Assembly (NCBI RefSeq): GCF_900116515.1
Contig: NZ_FPBA01000007.1
Location: forward strand, 1-64,000
Source of the DNA: Geodermatophilus amargosae
GTDB taxonomy: Bacteria > Actinomycetota > Actinomycetes > Mycobacteriales > Geodermatophilaceae
Length of the DNA stretch: 64,000 nucleotides
Reading direction: 5' to 3'
Shown here: positions 2,838 through 31,084 of the stretch, in pieces
Position numbering within the stretch: the first letter of the stretch is position 1
How the letters are laid out: each line of letters starts with the position of its first letter
Program-made: the position numbers and the translations under genes
Notes under the pieces: model-generated
What the model saw: the letters and a program-made list of their open reading frames with translations, nothing else
The model's database searches: none
Told to the model about the DNA's origin: nothing

Positions 2838-3234
2838 CTGGGCGTGGCCCCACCTCGCGTCCTTACTCCAGGTGCCTCATCGGGTTTGTGGACACAAACG
2901 GTGAACCATGTGCGTCAACGGTGACGAGGAACGGCAGACGTCCGCCGCGGGGCGGCGGATTGTCGCCGGGTGACCCGAGTATCGCCCGGTGACGCTCTCC
3001 TGCGGTGTAGAGGAGCCGCGCACTCACCTCCTGTCGTCGAGTGGGACAACCTGGAAGAGCACACCGAGCGCTTCGTCGAATCTCCCGAGTTCCGGCAGTG
3101 GCAAGCCCTCGGCGGCCCGATTCCGGGAAGGCTCCCGTCGTCCGGCACGACACCTCAGCGCGTGGATCATGGCCCGATGCTGATCACCGAGGATCGGGAT
3201 GGTGTTCCGGTTCTGCGCATCGAGCACGGCCGGG
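2838..3234. other. Gene-free stretch, about 400 bp
   Basis: Open frames on both strands overlap here, but none has a recognisable motif, an upstream ribosome site or coherent composition. One minus-strand inverted pair (GGCGGCAAT-like purine runs near 2945-2960) is too weak to call. Nothing supported is seen. Confidence 0.4.
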
Positions 3235-4731
3235 TCAGCGCTGGTGTCGCTTGGTGGCGTACATGGCGGCGTCGGCTTCCCGAACTACCCGTTGGTGGGC
3301 ATGGGCGGGATCGGCGCCGCTTTCTACATGGCCGATCCCGATGCTCATGTGCACAGGGATCGTGGTCTCCTCGACGACCAACGGATCCTGAAAGGCGTCG
3401 CGCAGCCGCCCGACCAGGAGCTCGGCGTGGGCTCGGTCGGTGTGCTCACACACGACGCCGAACTCGTCGCCGCCCAGTCGTGCTGCGGTGTCGCTGCTCC
3501 GTAGCACCGTCTGCAGGCGCTCGGCGAAGGCGACGAGCACGAGGTCACCGGTGTGGTGGCCGAGCGTGTCGTTGATGGTCTTGAAGTCGTCGAGGTCGAT
3601 GATCAGCACGGATGTCGGGGTGTCTGCGCGCGATCCGCGCTCCAAGGCGTGCTGCAGCCGGTCGTGAAACAACAACCTGTTGGGTAGTCCGGTCAGTGGG
3701 TCGTGCAGCGAGCGGTGCAGCAGCTGCGCCTCGAGGGCTTTTCGGTCGGTGATGTCCTCGACGATCATGACCAGATGAGGCGGGTCGCCCGCAGAGCTGC
3801 CGTCCACCCAGGAGGCGGTCACCTGCACGGGGAACTCATCCCCGTCGGCGTGCATCAGCCTGGTCTCGAGGCGCATTGGCTGGCGGTGTTCGGCCAGCAG
3901 CGTCGCATGCGCCTGGCTGGCGCCTGCTTGGCCGGCGGGGTGCACCAGGTCCAGCACTGATTGGCCGTGCAAGACCTCGGCGGCCATGCCGAGCATCCGG
4001 CACAGCGCGGGGTTGGCGTCGACCAGAACCCCGGCGGGCGTGGTGAGGGCGATTCCCATCGGCGCGTTGGTGAACGCGCTGCGCCGGTCCGCCGGAGGGA
4101 ACACGCGCGTCGCCTCGTTCAGGGCCCACCTCCAGGCGTGAGGCACTACTTGCCCGATAGTCGCCGGGACCGGCGCCCGGGACTGCACGGACTGTTCCGA
4201 CCGAGCCCTGCAAGCGAGATGCCCAACGCGCACGGGAGGTGGCGGCCTGGTCGTCGCGGGCGCCCGACGGGCGGACGCTGTGGACCGGTAGTGGCCTGCA
4301 CCCAGGCCGTGCACCCCACCGCGGGCGCGATGAGCGGGATGCCGCCGCACAGACAGGTGCGCGAGCACGAAACGCTTGTCATGGCCCTCGCAGCAGGCTC
4401 GGCAGATCCCGACAGCCGGTGTGTTGAGCCGTCGTGCGTCAGCGCCCGCGTGTTGAACCACGGCCTCGACGTGCTCGAGGGGGTGACAAGTGGCTCGGTG
4501 TTGGTTTCGATCGAGCAGGCGACAGGCGGTTGGTTCTCCGCCACCGGGCGCGCTGCGACTCTCCGAGTCGGCACGCCGAAGAGCGTTGTCGACCATGCGG
4601 TCCTCATCCTGCTGGCAGTTGGAGAGGGCTCTGCCGACGAGGAGGGCAGACAACGGCGCGAGGAGCAGCCAGCTGGCCAGGATCAACCAGAGCACCGAAT
4701 CTCCACCCTCCGGCCGAGATACTCGGTTCAC
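3235..4731 (-). CDS. PAS-GGDEF diguanylate cyclase; N-terminal half doubtful
   Basis: The last ~280 residues are a coherent sensor-cyclase: a PAS domain (~218-333, AFTNAPMGIAL to IVEDITDRK) and a GGDEF domain (~338-498). The GGDEF signature is intact at 420-424. An RSSD inhibitory (I) site lies exactly five residues before it, and the DLDDF metal-binding stretch is near 379. It should make cyclic di-GMP from GTP and be product-inhibited; no EAL domain follows. Residues 13-35 form a membrane helix resembling small stand-alone membrane proteins. Residues ~45-215 are His/Arg/Pro-rich and unlike any domain, as if the frame were open by chance. The true cyclase may start near GTG 4146, making the upstream part a separate or decayed gene. 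Confidence 0.7.
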   Translation of the reverse strand: MNRVSRPEGGDSVLWLILASWLLLAPLSALLVGRALSNCQQDEDRMVDNALRRADSESRSAPGGGEPTACRLLDRNQHRATCHPLEHVEAVVQHAGADARRLNTPAVGICRACCEGHDKRFVLAHLSVRRHPAHRARGGVHGLGAGHYRSTASARRAPATTRPPPPVRVGHLACRARSEQSVQSRAPVPATIGQVVPHAWRWALNEATRVFPPADRRSAFTNAPMGIALTTPAGVLVDANPALCRMLGMAAEVLHGQSVLDLVHPAGQAGASQAHATLLAEHRQPMRLETRLMHADGDEFPVQVTASWVDGSSAGDPPHLVMIVEDITDRKALEAQLLHRSLHDPLTGLPNRLLFHDRLQHALERGSRADTPTSVLIIDLDDFKTINDTLGHHTGDLVLVAFAERLQTVLRSSDTAARLGGDEFGVVCEHTDRAHAELLVGRLRDAFQDPLVVEETTIPVHMSIGIGHVESGADPAHAHQRVVREADAAMYATKRHQR

Positions 4732-26669: not shown

Positions 26670-27269
26670 TCAGACCTCCGCGTCCAGGACCGGCCGGCCG
26701 GCCAGCGCGCCGACCACCTCGACGGCGGCGTCCCAGTAGCGCTCGTAGTGGTAGGGGTCGGCGTTGCGCTGCGTGCGGTGCGCGGCGATCGTCGGCGGCA
26801 GCGCCTGCCAGTCGGGGACCTCCTGCAGCGCCAGGAAGAAGTTGGTGGCGCTGGTGGTCGGGTCCATCCGGTCGGCGTAGCTGCCCCAGGCGCCGTTGTC
26901 CCGCTGCTGGAACAGCCCGCGGGAGTCCGGGCCGACGGCGTCGCCGCGGTCGAGGACGAGCAGCGAGGACTCCCCCATCGCGGTCATGACGCCGACCACC
27001 TGCGCGCAGGTGTCCAGCCCGAGCGCCTCGGCCGCGTTGACGATCGCCGCGGCGTTGGCCAGCTGCTCACCTCCGTAGCCGGCGACCGGGCCCTCCGGCA
27101 CGGTGGCCGGGTCGATCCGCACACCGGGTCCCGCGGCCGCGCACTCCGCGGAGCGCGGTGGGTCCGCGGTCACCTGGCGCACCACCAGGAACGCCGCGAG
27201 CAGCACGAGGAGGACGGCTCCGAGCGCGACGAGCTGCCGGCGGTGCGAGGCGAGCCCGGGTGTGTGCAC
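26670..27269 (-). CDS. Membrane-anchored lysozyme-like protein
   Basis: About 199 residues from GTG 27269; an open frame to 27371 overlaps the preceding gene and is not preferred. Near the N-terminus RRQLVALGAVLLVLLAAFLV is a membrane anchor. The rest is extracytoplasmic and contains VVGVMTAMGESSLLVLDRGD, then GLFQQRDNGAWGSYADRMDP and FFLALQEVPDWQ. This resembles the lysozyme-like (SLT) fold in actinobacterial cell-wall hydrolases, with a candidate catalytic Glu in AMGESS. Two cysteines (AECAAAG and DTCAQVV) may form a disulfide. It follows the prodomain-like gene by 37 bp and probably shares the protease transcript. Confidence 0.65.
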   Translation of the reverse strand: MHTPGLASHRRQLVALGAVLLVLLAAFLVVRQVTADPPRSAECAAAGPGVRIDPATVPEGPVAGYGGEQLANAAAIVNAAEALGLDTCAQVVGVMTAMGESSLLVLDRGDAVGPDSRGLFQQRDNGAWGSYADRMDPTTSATNFFLALQEVPDWQALPPTIAAHRTQRNADPYHYERYWDAAVEVVGALAGRPVLDAEV

Positions 27270-27306
27270 ACCCGGTCCAACGGACGGCGCACCCCAGGGG
27301 TCCCCG

Positions 27307-27552
27307 CTACTGGACGGACGCGTCCGGCGGGGGGAGCTGGACGCGCAGCTGCTCGTCGACCGACGTGACACCCGGGACGGCCAGCAGCGACGGGCGCGCG
27401 TCGGCGGGGGCCTGGCCGGTGATGACGCCGAGCGTGCCGAGGACCCGCTCGACCTCCATGCCGGAGTCGCGCAGGGCGGAGGCGACCGAGTCCAGCTCGG
27501 AGAGGTGGCCGTCGTCGACGGTCACGCTGAACCGCGCCAGCGGGGACACCAT
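27307..27552 (-). CDS. Stand-alone I9-like prodomain / candidate protease inhibitor
   Basis: 81 residues from ATG 27552. The pattern ARFSVTVDDGHLSELDSVAS, VLGTLGVITGQAPADARPSL, LAVPGVTSVDEQLRVQLPPP is that of subtilisin propeptides (I9 family): a beta-alpha-beta sandwich ending in PGV-x-SV-[ED]-E. In ordinary subtilases this domain is fused ahead of the protease to fold and inhibit it. Here it is a separate small gene 9 bp downstream of the S8 peptidase gene. It may act in trans as chaperone or inhibitor. Some related small proteins carry the misleading label ketohydroxyglutarate aldolase. The assignment rests on pattern, not search. Confidence 0.65.
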   Translation of the reverse strand: MVSPLARFSVTVDDGHLSELDSVASALRDSGMEVERVLGTLGVITGQAPADARPSLLAVPGVTSVDEQLRVQLPPPDASVQ

Positions 27553-27561
27553 GGCGGGAGG

Positions 27562-28884
27562 CTACGCCCTCCGGGACCGCCCGGAGACCGTCCCGGCGCC
27601 CTCCTGCGGCGCGAGCACCAGGCCGCTGCCCACGTCGACCGACGGCTCGGTCAGCCGCCGGCCGGCCTGGGTGAGCGTGGCCCAGAGCTCGAAGCCGCGG
27701 CGGCCGGTGGCCTCGGCCCAGAGCGCGGCCAGCCCGGCGACGTGCGGCGTGGCCATGCTGGTACCGCTGATCGTGTTGTACCGGTCGGGCATCGGCCAGG
27801 TCGACAGCACGTCCACGCCCGGCGCGGCCACGTCCACCTCCCCGCCGGGTACCGGCAGGCTGCGCGCGGAGAACCAGGCGGTGGTCAGCCGGGGGTCCAG
27901 TGCCCCCACGGCCAGGATCTCCACGCTGTTGGCCGGCGCGCCGACGAAGCCGAACTCCCCGTTCTCCCGGTCGGCGTTGTTGCCGGCCGCGGCCACGATC
28001 AGCGACCCCTGCTCCAGCGCCCGCCGGCCGGCCGCGGAGTAGGGCGGGTGCGCCTCGGCGACGTCGGCGCCCAGCGACATCGAGATCACCGCGCAGCCGT
28101 TGGCGACCGCCCAGTCGATGCCGGCCAGGATGCCGCCGTCGTCGCCGCTGCCCTCGTCGCTGAGCACCTTGCCGACGAAGACCTCCGCGTCCGACGCGAC
28201 GCCGTAGCGCGGCCCGGCCGGGGGCACCCGCGGGCCGCAGGCGGTGCCGGTGCAGTGGGTGCCGTGGCCGTGGCCGTCCTGTGCGCTGTCCACCCCGGTC
28301 ACGAACGACTCCGCGGTCACCGTCCGGCCGGCGAAGTCGGGGTGCTGCAGGTCCAGCCCGGTGTCGAGGACGGCGACCCGGATGCCCTGCCCGGTGAACG
28401 GCGACGTCGTCGCCTGCACCGCCTGGATGCCCCAGGTGGCCGCCGCGGTGTCCTCGAACGGGGGCGGCAGCGGGGGCTCCTCACCTGGCACCGGCGCGCC
28501 GGCCAGCCGGGCGGCGAGGTCGGCGACGCCGTCGCGGTAGCCCCGGACGTAGGCCGACGGGTCCTCGGGCAGGACGTGGTGGACCAGCTCGGGCGACACC
28601 GACAGCACCGGCCGTCGCGCACCGCGCAGGGCGGCCACCTGGTCGGGGCCCGCGGCGACGACCGCGATGCCCAGCCGGGCGAACACCGTGGCACCGGCGT
28701 CGCGCATCGCCTGGGCGGGGACCCGGCCGGAGGCGAAGTCGCGGGAGTCGGCGACGTCGGAGATCCCGGCCGCCGACCAGTCCACCGGCTCGTCGGCCGC
28801 GTCGGCGAAGACGACGACCTGCCGGCCGGTGGTCTGCGCCCCCGGCACGCGGGGCGGGCGGGCGGCAGTAGGCGGATCGATCAC
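27562..28884 (-). CDS. S8-family serine peptidase (subtilisin-like)
   Basis: 440 residues from ATG 28884. The catalytic triad is clear: Asp in VAVLDTGLDLQHPDF, His in GHGHGTHCTGTACG, Ser in ISGTSMATPHVAGLAALW, with oxyanion Asn in VAAAGNNADREN. No signal peptide or membrane segment is visible at the N-terminus. Residues 1-145 form an alpha/beta region (GRQVVVFADAADEPVDWSAA onward) unlike the usual I9 propeptide. The enzyme therefore seems to lack its own prodomain and perhaps acts in the cytoplasm. The adjacent small I9-like gene may supply that function. The protease starts a leftward unit with that gene and the lysozyme-like gene. Confidence 0.92.
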   Translation of the reverse strand: MIDPPTAARPPRVPGAQTTGRQVVVFADAADEPVDWSAAGISDVADSRDFASGRVPAQAMRDAGATVFARLGIAVVAAGPDQVAALRGARRPVLSVSPELVHHVLPEDPSAYVRGYRDGVADLAARLAGAPVPGEEPPLPPPFEDTAAATWGIQAVQATTSPFTGQGIRVAVLDTGLDLQHPDFAGRTVTAESFVTGVDSAQDGHGHGTHCTGTACGPRVPPAGPRYGVASDAEVFVGKVLSDEGSGDDGGILAGIDWAVANGCAVISMSLGADVAEAHPPYSAAGRRALEQGSLIVAAAGNNADRENGEFGFVGAPANSVEILAVGALDPRLTTAWFSARSLPVPGGEVDVAAPGVDVLSTWPMPDRYNTISGTSMATPHVAGLAALWAEATGRRGFELWATLTQAGRRLTEPSVDVGSGLVLAPQEGAGTVSGRSRRA

Positions 28885-29072
28885 GGCTCCCCCTCGACGA
28901 CGGCGCGGGTGGGGAGCCCGGCGGTCTCCCCGCCGTCCCCCCAGCCGCCGGGGACGGGTCCCGGCGGTGGCAGCAGTCTGTAGCGCGGGGGTGACAGATG
29001 CGAACCGGACGGCGCCACGGTGGCGTCCGGAAACCGCCAGTCAGGCCTCCCGTGCGGTGCCATGCTCGGTGC

Positions 29073-30557
29073 GTGCTCTCCTCGATCGACGCCGAACGCT
29101 GCTACCGCGCGGTCGCCAGCCGCGACGCCCGCTTCGACGGCTGGTTCTTCACCGCGGTGCGCACCACCGGCATCTACTGCCGCCCCTCGTGCCCGGCCCG
29201 CACGCCGGCCGCCGTCAACGTCTCCTTCTTCGGCAGCGCCGCCGGCGCCCAGGCAGCGGGCTACCGGGCCTGCCGCCGCTGCCGGCCCGACGCCGTCCCG
29301 GGGTCACCCGAGTGGGACGTGCGCGCCGACGTCGTCGCCCGTGCCATGCGGCTGATCGCCGACGGCGAGGTCGAGCGCTCCGGCGTCCCCGGGCTGGCCG
29401 CGCGGCTGGGCTACTCCGAGCGGCAGGTGCACCGCCTGCTGGTCGGTGAGCTCGGCGTCGGCCCGCTCGCCGTGGCCCGCGCCCAGCGCGCGCAGACCGC
29501 CCGGGTGCTCGTCGAGACCACGGACCTGCCGATGGCCGACGTCGCCTTCGCGGCCGGGTTCGCCAGCATCCGGCAGTTCAACGACACCGTCCGCGAGGTC
29601 TTCGCCTGCACGCCGTCAGAGCTGCGCCACTGCCGGCCCGGCAGCGACGGCGGGACACCGGGCTGGCTGACCCTGCGGCTGGCCGCCCGCGCCCCGTTCG
29701 ACGCCGCCGAGGTGCTGCACTTCCTCGGCGCGCACGCCGTCCCGGGCCTCGAGGAGTGGGACGGGACGACGTTCTCGCGGGTGCTCGACCTGCCCGCCGG
29801 GCCCGGCGTCGTCCGCCTCTCCCCCGCGCCCGACGGCGGCCCCGCGGTGACCGCCCGGCTGCTGCTCACCGACCTGCGCGACCTGCGAGCCGCCGTCCCC
29901 CGCTGCCGGCGGCTGCTCGACCTCGACGCCGACCCCACCGCCGTCGACGAGGTCCTCGGGGTCGACCCCGCGCTGGCGCCCCTGGTGGCCGGCGCGCCGG
30001 GCCGGCGGGTGCCCGCCTCGCCCGACGGCCCGGAGTCGGCGGTGCGCGCGGTGCTCGGCCAGCAGGTCTCGGTGGCCGGTGCCCGCACGCTGACCGCGCG
30101 GGTCCTGACGCTGGCCGGGACGCCGCTCGCCGAGCCGGTCGGCACCCTCACCCACGCCTTCCCGAGACCAGAGGCGCTGGCCGACGCCGACCTGTCCGCC
30201 GTCGGCCTCACGGGCGCCCGACGCCGCACGCTGGGCGGCCTGGCCGCCGCCATGGCCGAGGGCCGCGTCGTCCTGGACCCGGGGTGCGACCGCGAGGCGG
30301 TCGCCCGCGACCTGCTGGCGCTGCCCGGCATCGGCCCGTGGACGGCGTCGCTGGTGGTCATGCGCGGCCTCGGCGACCCCGACGTGTGGCTGCCCGGTGA
30401 CCTCGCGCTGCGCCGCGCGCTGGCCTCCCTCGGCAGCTCCGACGCCGAGGCCGCCACCCGCTGGCGGCCGTGGCGCTCGTACGCCGCGATGCACCTCTGG
30501 GCGCTCGCCGCCCCCACACTGTTCACCCGCTCCCCCGCTGATCGGAGTGCGTCATGA
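29073..30557 (+). CDS. Fused Ada-type regulator and AlkA DNA-3-methyladenine glycosylase
   Basis: 494 residues from GTG 29073. Residues 1-75 are the Ada metal-binding domain, with Cys36, Cys40, Cys67 and Cys70 (YCRPSC and CRRC); Cys36 corresponds to the methyl-accepting cysteine. An AraC HTH follows (~85-185, LAARLGYSERQVHRLLVGEL and MADVAFAAGFASIRQFND). The rest is AlkA: N-terminal domain, then HhH-GPD, LPGIGPWTASLVVMRGLG, with catalytic Asp in LPGDLAL. One protein thus senses methyl damage, activates transcription and removes methylated bases. The gene overlaps the following methyltransferase by 4 bp. The divergent protease gene lies 188 bp away. Confidence 0.95.
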   Translation: MLSSIDAERCYRAVASRDARFDGWFFTAVRTTGIYCRPSCPARTPAAVNVSFFGSAAGAQAAGYRACRRCRPDAVPGSPEWDVRADVVARAMRLIADGEVERSGVPGLAARLGYSERQVHRLLVGELGVGPLAVARAQRAQTARVLVETTDLPMADVAFAAGFASIRQFNDTVREVFACTPSELRHCRPGSDGGTPGWLTLRLAARAPFDAAEVLHFLGAHAVPGLEEWDGTTFSRVLDLPAGPGVVRLSPAPDGGPAVTARLLLTDLRDLRAAVPRCRRLLDLDADPTAVDEVLGVDPALAPLVAGAPGRRVPASPDGPESAVRAVLGQQVSVAGARTLTARVLTLAGTPLAEPVGTLTHAFPRPEALADADLSAVGLTGARRRTLGGLAAAMAEGRVVLDPGCDREAVARDLLALPGIGPWTASLVVMRGLGDPDVWLPGDLALRRALASLGSSDAEAATRWRPWRSYAAMHLWALAAPTLFTRSPADRSAS

Positions 30558-31084
30558 CCCCGTCCGCCCGCTTCGCCACGGTGGCCACCCCACCGGGCCC
30601 CTTCACCGTCGTCGTCACTCCCGGACCCGACGGCGGCGACGTCGTCCTGGCCGCGGGGTGGACCGACGACGTCACCGAGCTGCTGCCCGTCGTCCACCGG
30701 GCGCTGCGGCCCACCTGGGTCGAGCGGGCCGAGCACCTGCCCGTCCTGGACGCGGTCGAGGCGCACGCCGCCGGCGACCTCGGCGCGATCGACGACATCC
30801 CGGTGCGGCAGCGCTCCGGGCCGTTCCTCGAGGACGCCTGGGAGGTGCTGCGGACCGTGCCGCCCGGGCAGCCGGACACCTACGCCGCGTTCGCCGCACG
30901 GTGCGGGCGCCCCTCGGCCGTGCGGGCGGCGGCCAACGCTTGCGCCCGCAACGCCGCCGCGCTGTTCGTCCCGTGCCACCGGGTGCTCGGCTCCGACGGC
31001 GGCCTGGGCGGGTTCCGCTGGGGCACGCCGGTCAAGCGCTGGCTGCTCGACCACGAGGCCGAGCACGCCCCCGTCCCCGTCTGA
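30554..31084 (+). CDS. ogt: Methylated-DNA--protein-cysteine methyltransferase
   Basis: 176 residues from ATG 30554, overlapping the Ada-AlkA stop as ATGA. The active-site motif is FVPCHRVLGSDG, with Cys141 as methyl acceptor. The helix-turn-helix ahead of it (TYAAFAARCGRPSAVRAAAN) and the following GGFRWGTPVKRWLLDHE are standard for the family. It repairs O6-methylguanine by suicidal methyl transfer. Coupling to an Ada-AlkA fusion gives a compact adaptive-response operon covering regulation, base excision and direct reversal. A 27-bp hairpin begins in its stop codon. Confidence 0.95.
   Translation: MTPSARFATVATPPGPFTVVVTPGPDGGDVVLAAGWTDDVTELLPVVHRALRPTWVERAEHLPVLDAVEAHAAGDLGAIDDIPVRQRSGPFLEDAWEVLRTVPPGQPDTYAAFAARCGRPSAVRAAANACARNAAALFVPCHRVLGSDGGLGGFRWGTPVKRWLLDHEAEHAPVPV

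Follow-up and report, generated by a model that had tools for sequence, protein, structure and literature searches.

Which described systems come closest to a gene for a subtilisin-like (S8) protease followed by a small gene for a prodomain-like (I9-type) protein? We address this question for such a pair in the first 64,000 nucleotides of contig NZ_FPBA01000007.1 of Geodermatophilus amargosae (hereafter the window; its source genome, GCF_900116515.1, is a 5.87-Mb draft in 69 contigs). Bacillus intracellular subtilisins (ISP), which have a short pro-extension, share the cytosol with the inhibitor BsuPI, a protein of a different fold. In yeast, the protease targeted by a stand-alone prodomain-fold inhibitor has a propeptide of its own as well, and the genera named for the ASP/ORF2 protease–helper pair are all Gram-negative. 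The stand-alone prodomain-fold subtilase inhibitors named in PMC6993865 are eukaryotic and have no significant sequence similarity to propeptides, and the same paper gives measured, potent, and selective inhibition of Plasmodium SUB1 by SUB1-ProM. For ASP/ORF2 of Aeromonas sobria, PMC5638518 places the helper gene just downstream of the protease gene and the C-terminus of ORF2 at the catalytic site; ORF2, an external chaperone, inhibits ASP with a half-maximal inhibitory concentration of 84.3 nM, ASP is called propeptide-deficient in the title of a reference listed there, and the pair is named in Aeromonas and four other genera. We found no description of the actinobacterial pair in the literature (open-licence papers only). 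The following features of the window enter the comparison:

27562..28884, minus strand: S8 (subtilisin-like) peptidase, 440 amino acids, GTG start; D174/H207/N302/S376; no visible signal peptide
28570..28833, minus strand: I9-like prodomain in cis at the N-terminus of the peptidase (residues 18-105), as predicted by the fold model
28447..28569, minus strand: linker joining the cis domain to the catalytic one (residues 106-146); it contains a conserved Y-R-D-G-V helix and is modelled with low confidence
27595..28446, minus strand: catalytic domain of the peptidase (residues ~147-430), from Pfam and the structure model
27559..27564, minus strand: TAGCCT, -10 hexamer (TANNNT) of the proposed leaderless promoter of the small gene, 6 nt from the ATG
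27307..27552, minus strand: stand-alone I9/prodomain-like protein, 81 amino acids, ATG start, 9 bases from the peptidase gene
27310..27336, minus strand: L-P-P-P-D-x-x-V-Q, the conserved tail that ends the small protein (residues 73-81); it is proposed to reach into the active-site cleft

We think it fairly probable that this locus encodes a cytosolic subtilisin zymogen together with a dedicated, cytosolic I9-type inhibitor. As with the eukaryotic stand-alone I9 inhibitors, which are potent inhibitors of subtilases, a small protein of prodomain fold is encoded apart from the protease; unlike them, the actinobacterial protein has detectable remote homology to bacterial cis prodomains, and its gene lies directly behind that of its presumed target. 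The likeness to SUB1-ProM and SUB1 is that of a propeptide-like protein encoded beside a subtilase with its own propeptide (here by model), but SUB1-ProM is secreted and belongs to a eukaryotic parasite, whereas neither actinobacterial protein appears to have a signal peptide. With ASP/ORF2 the locus shares the bacterial two-gene organization, the partner gene being just downstream. However, ASP is secreted, the actinobacterial protease has a modelled cis prodomain and so does not appear to be a protease without its own propeptide, and the partner in the window's family seems to have its own promoter. ISP and BsuPI are likewise a cytosolic protease and a cytosolic inhibitor, and differ in the length of the pro-region and in the inhibitor fold. 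By analogy, the pair would work most like the eukaryotic stand-alone I9 inhibitors and SUB1-ProM and be organized like ASP/ORF2. The latter replaces a missing prodomain; here, a second prodomain in trans would accompany one in cis. If this is true, the pair shows how a cell keeps a subtilisin safe in its cytosol, and it offers a natural series for the origin of free inhibitors, running from a prodomain in cis through one coupled in trans to one transcribed independently in trans.

What is the small protein? Both open reading frames proposed in the first-pass annotation, an earlier reading of the bare sequence, proved to be real genes, and both evolve in a coding manner (ratio of nonsynonymous to synonymous substitution rates, 0.06-0.63; 13 pairwise comparisons per gene). 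AlphaFold2 predicts the subtilase-prodomain (I9) fold for the small protein, with a predicted local distance difference test score (pLDDT) of 85, and subtilase prodomains are 21 of the 22 top structural matches to the model. A profile of the small protein detects prodomains in cis before the S8 domains of other actinobacterial proteases (98.1% in a profile comparison with prodomains of other, large S8 proteases), to which it is closer than to the cis domain of its own peptidase, and a remote homology search starting from the small protein also reaches propeptides in the PDB. The Pfam Inhibitor_I9 search that had been suggested as a check gave no match in the window protein (E values up to 10) or in 21 relatives, nor did NCBIfam match it; the “I9 pattern” noted earlier thus holds by predicted fold and remote homology but not by Pfam or NCBIfam. 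In the large actinobacterial S8 proteases of loci L128-L133 and L138, the prodomain escapes Pfam I9 but is found by the small-protein profile; such prodomains could feed a broader I9 model. Residue 66 of the small protein is D or E in 89 of 90 sequences and aligns with an acidic residue in the propeptide of Tk-subtilisin, taken here as the first capping residue. P74 aligns with the final residue of that propeptide chain (3vv2, a mutant form), and the tail P-P-D-x-x-V-Q thus continues past the usual cleavage point. In subtilase propeptides, acidic residues cap helix ends of the enzyme (Glu69 and Asp71 in BPN'), and the C-terminal tail is extended (PMC6993865).

The peptidase has the makings of an S8 subtilase: a Peptidase_S8 domain in Pfam (residues 165-393, E = 1.6e-43), the Asp/His/Ser triad, and the oxyanion Asn. 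D174, H207, and N302 are identical in 88 of 88 aligned proteases (the window's counted), and S376 is kept in 87, the exception (L039) being frameshifted; the triad reported as intact from the single sequence is therefore borne out across relatives. A crude hydropathy scan, made with no dedicated predictor, found neither a signal peptide nor a membrane segment in the proteases, in agreement with the earlier view: the top mean hydropathy of 15-residue stretches within the first 50 residues was 1.53 over 89 protease sequences. A few relatives of the small protein show higher values, up to 2.18 (L123), which come from the first strand. Judging from sequence, the peptidase seems to be an intracellular subtilisin, and because both proteins seemingly lack signal peptides, the system would be cytosolic, where an extra guard is useful.

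Does the peptidase lack a prodomain of its own? The first-pass annotation had held that the peptidase has no I9-type propeptide and that its prodomain seemed to be a separate gene, a view that an I9 domain within the first 145 residues would refute. The fold model shows such a domain: it places an I9-like domain at about residues 18-102 (beta18-26, beta44-46, alpha57-62, beta65-68, beta73-76, alpha80-87, and beta93-102), in the usual site of a prodomain ahead of the catalytic domain, although by sequence Pfam found nothing in residues 1-146. Residues 21-100 have block pLDDT values of 87-95, and parts of the catalytic domain fall below 50. This model treats the pair as one chain, with Gly in place of the stop codon, and was compared with known structures by VIA-align alone; the absence of other families from the lists of matches was not counted as evidence. 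The ten best matches were subtilase pro-forms in which model residue 20 pairs with chain residue 6-8 (36 in the top match), with 307-327 residues aligned; the remaining 40 matches listed began at model residue 142-147, with 236-262 residues aligned. On the model, the peptidase probably carries an I9-like prodomain in cis, and the locus would probably combine a zymogen with another prodomain-like protein encoded separately. Given the cis domain, the small gene would encode an additional I9 protein and not a split-off prodomain, and we rejected the split-prodomain reading on the level of fold only.

We asked how strictly the two genes are associated. Among 112 genomes of the window's family, the protease was found (E up to 1e-40) in 49, all of which have the small gene (only remnants of the pair, L040, in G058); of the rest, G039 has a weak small-gene match only and 62 have neither gene. 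The family set comprised 54 loci (53 regions and the window), 52 of them with a protease match, and every one of these 52 has the small gene downstream of the protease on the same strand, though in L040 and L081 it is just a remnant. The same arrangement holds in 40/40 loci outside the family, which were found via one gene or the other (13 from a search with the peptidase N-terminal domain and 27 from a search with the small-protein profile; L122, without a protease, and L127, decayed, were left out). Across 50 loci the intergenic gap is -4 to 110 nt, with a single case of 660 nt besides. The pairing is kept in the diverged second copies of G040 and G042 (L078 and L079); in G001 (L080), the small gene again stands behind a protease match that is not readable from a start codon, and in the second copy of G009 (L081) both genes have decayed. 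The survey of co-occurrence that had been called for thus supports the pair, and with it the view that the small protein is dedicated to the S8 peptidase. Since all the loci share a common descent, these counts do not represent independent events.

Within the order, 79 of 298 genomes matched the small-protein profile; within the phylum 9 of 396 did, strongly in three when the window's own is counted; the eight others (E up to 1e-3) comprise two strong and six weak matches. A search of an 84,980-species collection with the peptidase N-terminal domain—a query that biases the set toward relatives having that domain—returned 41 loci, 28 of them already sampled otherwise. The small gene stands beside the protease match in 41/41, and the range includes Arthrobacter, Pseudarthrobacter, Kocuria, Aldersonia, and Rhodococcus; relatives also include Geodermatophilus and Blastococcus species. 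The small gene is truncated and the protease broken in L149, and in both L144 and L178 the protease is spread across two frames.

How is the small gene expressed? In 47/47 main-clade family loci its start is preceded by a TANNNT hexamer, at -12 in 22, at -13 in 20, and at -14 in 5, against a chance expectation of ~0.0012 per position at the given base composition. None occurs at the other offsets from -6 to -39 before these 47 genes, and the identical scan before 49 protease starts found none. A Shine-Dalgarno-like word precedes only 1/47 small genes versus 33/49 proteases. The hexamer starts in the protease stop codon in 10 loci, including the window, where the peptidase TAG is part of TAGCCT, and inside the protease gene in 2. 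The count of 47 leaves out the decayed L040 and L081, the diverged L078-L080 lie outside the 47, and in L046, L050, L053, L055, and L074 the start codon was shifted to one common to relatives before counting. In Mycobacterium tuberculosis, 73% of primary start sites have a TANNNT motif centred 7-12 bp upstream, and a quarter of the genes are expressed as leaderless mRNAs (PMC3898074). The upstream sequences suggest that the small gene in the window's family probably has its own leaderless promoter. In L034, where the genes are 660 nt apart, the hexamer is still directly before the small gene.

The gene pair, the catalytic residues, the predicted I9 fold, the strict association, the conserved tail, and the conserved -10-like element are the observations on which our reading builds. 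As a gene pair and a fold, the two proteins are well supported; the inhibitor role is a prediction, and promoter activity, binding, trigger, and cellular role are proposed along with it. The modelled cis prodomain presumably aids folding of the peptidase and is then processed. The 81-residue protein would bind the matured enzyme in the manner of a propeptide, with acidic residue 66 capping the helices next to the active site. The L-P-P-P-D-x-x-V-Q tail would occupy the substrate cleft and be hard to cleave; its prolines should make it a poor substrate, which would suit a lasting inhibitor of the mature enzyme. In the window's family, transcription from a leaderless promoter of its own, at the end of the protease gene, would allow the inhibitor to be made independently of the enzyme and in excess over it. 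Peptidase activity would then appear once the inhibitor is degraded or titrated, and our guess at the trigger is regulated inhibitor turnover in stress or stationary phase.

Several results weigh against this reading. For the cis domain, a close set of N-terminal domains found no match in the PDB, a widened set had as its best match a subtilase propeptide at a weak E of 0.53, and Pfam I9 appeared in 1/26 N-terminal domains, also weakly (E = 0.16). The N-terminal-domain profile scored 4.7%, 5.6%, and 53.8% against the small protein in three comparisons and <1% against cis prodomains of other S8 proteases. For the small protein, the profile alone, run against the PDB, reached 25 sequences up to E 10, with no propeptide among them, and the last residue is other than Q in 15/90. 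The one-chain model has a mean pLDDT of 69.7, with values below 50 at residues 111-131, 133-158, 302-313, 328-372, 410-426, and 430-445, and is too poor in the catalytic domain to inform on where the small protein binds. The strict pairing has its exceptions, too: L122 holds a small gene (3085-3444) with no S8 motif in a 6.5-kb region and no P-P-P tail—perhaps an orphan inhibitor—and, among the weak profile matches in the order (11 of 26 genomes sampled), 2/11 are other proteins (L134, DUF222/HNH; L137, with no identity found by search). The -10 element is less general than the main clade suggests. The diverged L078-L080 lack the hexamer (47/50 when they are counted), and outside the family TANNNT at -11 to -14 is found in 12/40 loci, a Shine-Dalgarno-like sequence in 18/40, and a 4-nt overlap with the protease, which suggests coupled translation, in 8/40; the mode of expression therefore varies there. 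An origin of the small protein by duplication of the cis domain was also considered, and the three profile comparisons lend it no clear support.

Could the small protein instead be a folding helper? The first-pass annotation had left the choice between a folding helper and a dedicated inhibitor. Inhibition of the peptidase is the best reading, and a helper appears less needed given the cis domain. As a trans-acting helper, the small protein would be required for the peptidase to fold, like ORF2 for ASP, and would inhibit it in passing, and the N-terminal domain of the peptidase would have lost its folding role. Gene order and the arrangement of the C-terminal tail are like those of ASP/ORF2 as given in PMC5638518, and the 4-nt overlap in some outside-family pairs would suit co-translational folding; we nevertheless judge this unlikely, as ASP is called propeptide-deficient whereas this peptidase is modelled with a cis I9-like domain, and a separate leaderless promoter, as proposed for all main-clade loci, is ill suited to a 1:1 need at synthesis. 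An explanation by the common ferredoxin-like fold alone (ACT, ribosomal S6, and NapD), which would make the small protein some other accessory or regulatory subunit, seems extremely improbable: prodomains dominate the top structural matches, remote homology leads to domains just ahead of S8 domains and to PDB propeptides, and, apart from L122 and weak matches, the neighbour is an S8 peptidase.

Inhibition could also serve a toxin–antidote-like module, in which the peptidase would be a cytosolic effector of death or dormancy and the I9 protein its labile antidote. The lack of visible signal peptides, the strict co-occurrence, and the joint decay of both genes in L040, L081, and L127 are in keeping with such a module, as is the fact that an intact protease beside a broken small gene was never seen among the examined loci. 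So is the proposed separate, leaderless expression of the small gene, since leaderless mRNAs are over-represented among toxin–antitoxin modules in M. tuberculosis (PMC3898074), and in Arthrobacter genes for a nuclease and a matrixin are found close to the pair. In L039/L144 and L178 the protease is broken while the small gene is intact, which such a module would allow but not require, and the module strikes us as very doubtful. A broader version is quite a long shot as well: a widespread actinobacterial intracellular proteolytic switch in which a subtilisin doubly guarded, by a cis prodomain and an independently transcribed trans-prodomain antidote, acts like a toxin–antidote or a stress/cell-death module and is released on antidote loss.

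Is there a conserved third partner? The gene next in line, a candidate third member of the unit in the first-pass annotation, is the following:

26670..27371, minus strand: third gene, lysozyme/transglycosylase-like by that annotation's label, with a hydrophobic stretch near its start

Pfam gave no match for this gene. Of the 52 family loci that have a protease match, just 10 show a lysozyme-like gene by the pair (the window's and those of nine relatives, all in the window's genus-level clade), and neighbours differ between the genera looked at, so the idea of a conserved third partner was dropped. In Arthrobacter and Pseudarthrobacter (L169, L170, L172, and L173), the pair sits inside a conserved cluster, for which Pfam was run on L172 only. 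Upstream is an alpha/beta hydrolase (4/4 loci); downstream are a large protein (4/4, and also L171) in which a stretch that looks trypsin-like by eye precedes an Endonuclease_NS domain, and a matrixin with DUF346 repeats (4/4, partial in L170). A BTAD-domain regulator is present in 3/4. In the window, the divergent neighbours at 28998-31081 (plus strand) are two ordinary alkylation-repair genes, one for an Ada zinc-binding/AraC/AlkA fusion and the other for a methylguanine-DNA methyltransferase.
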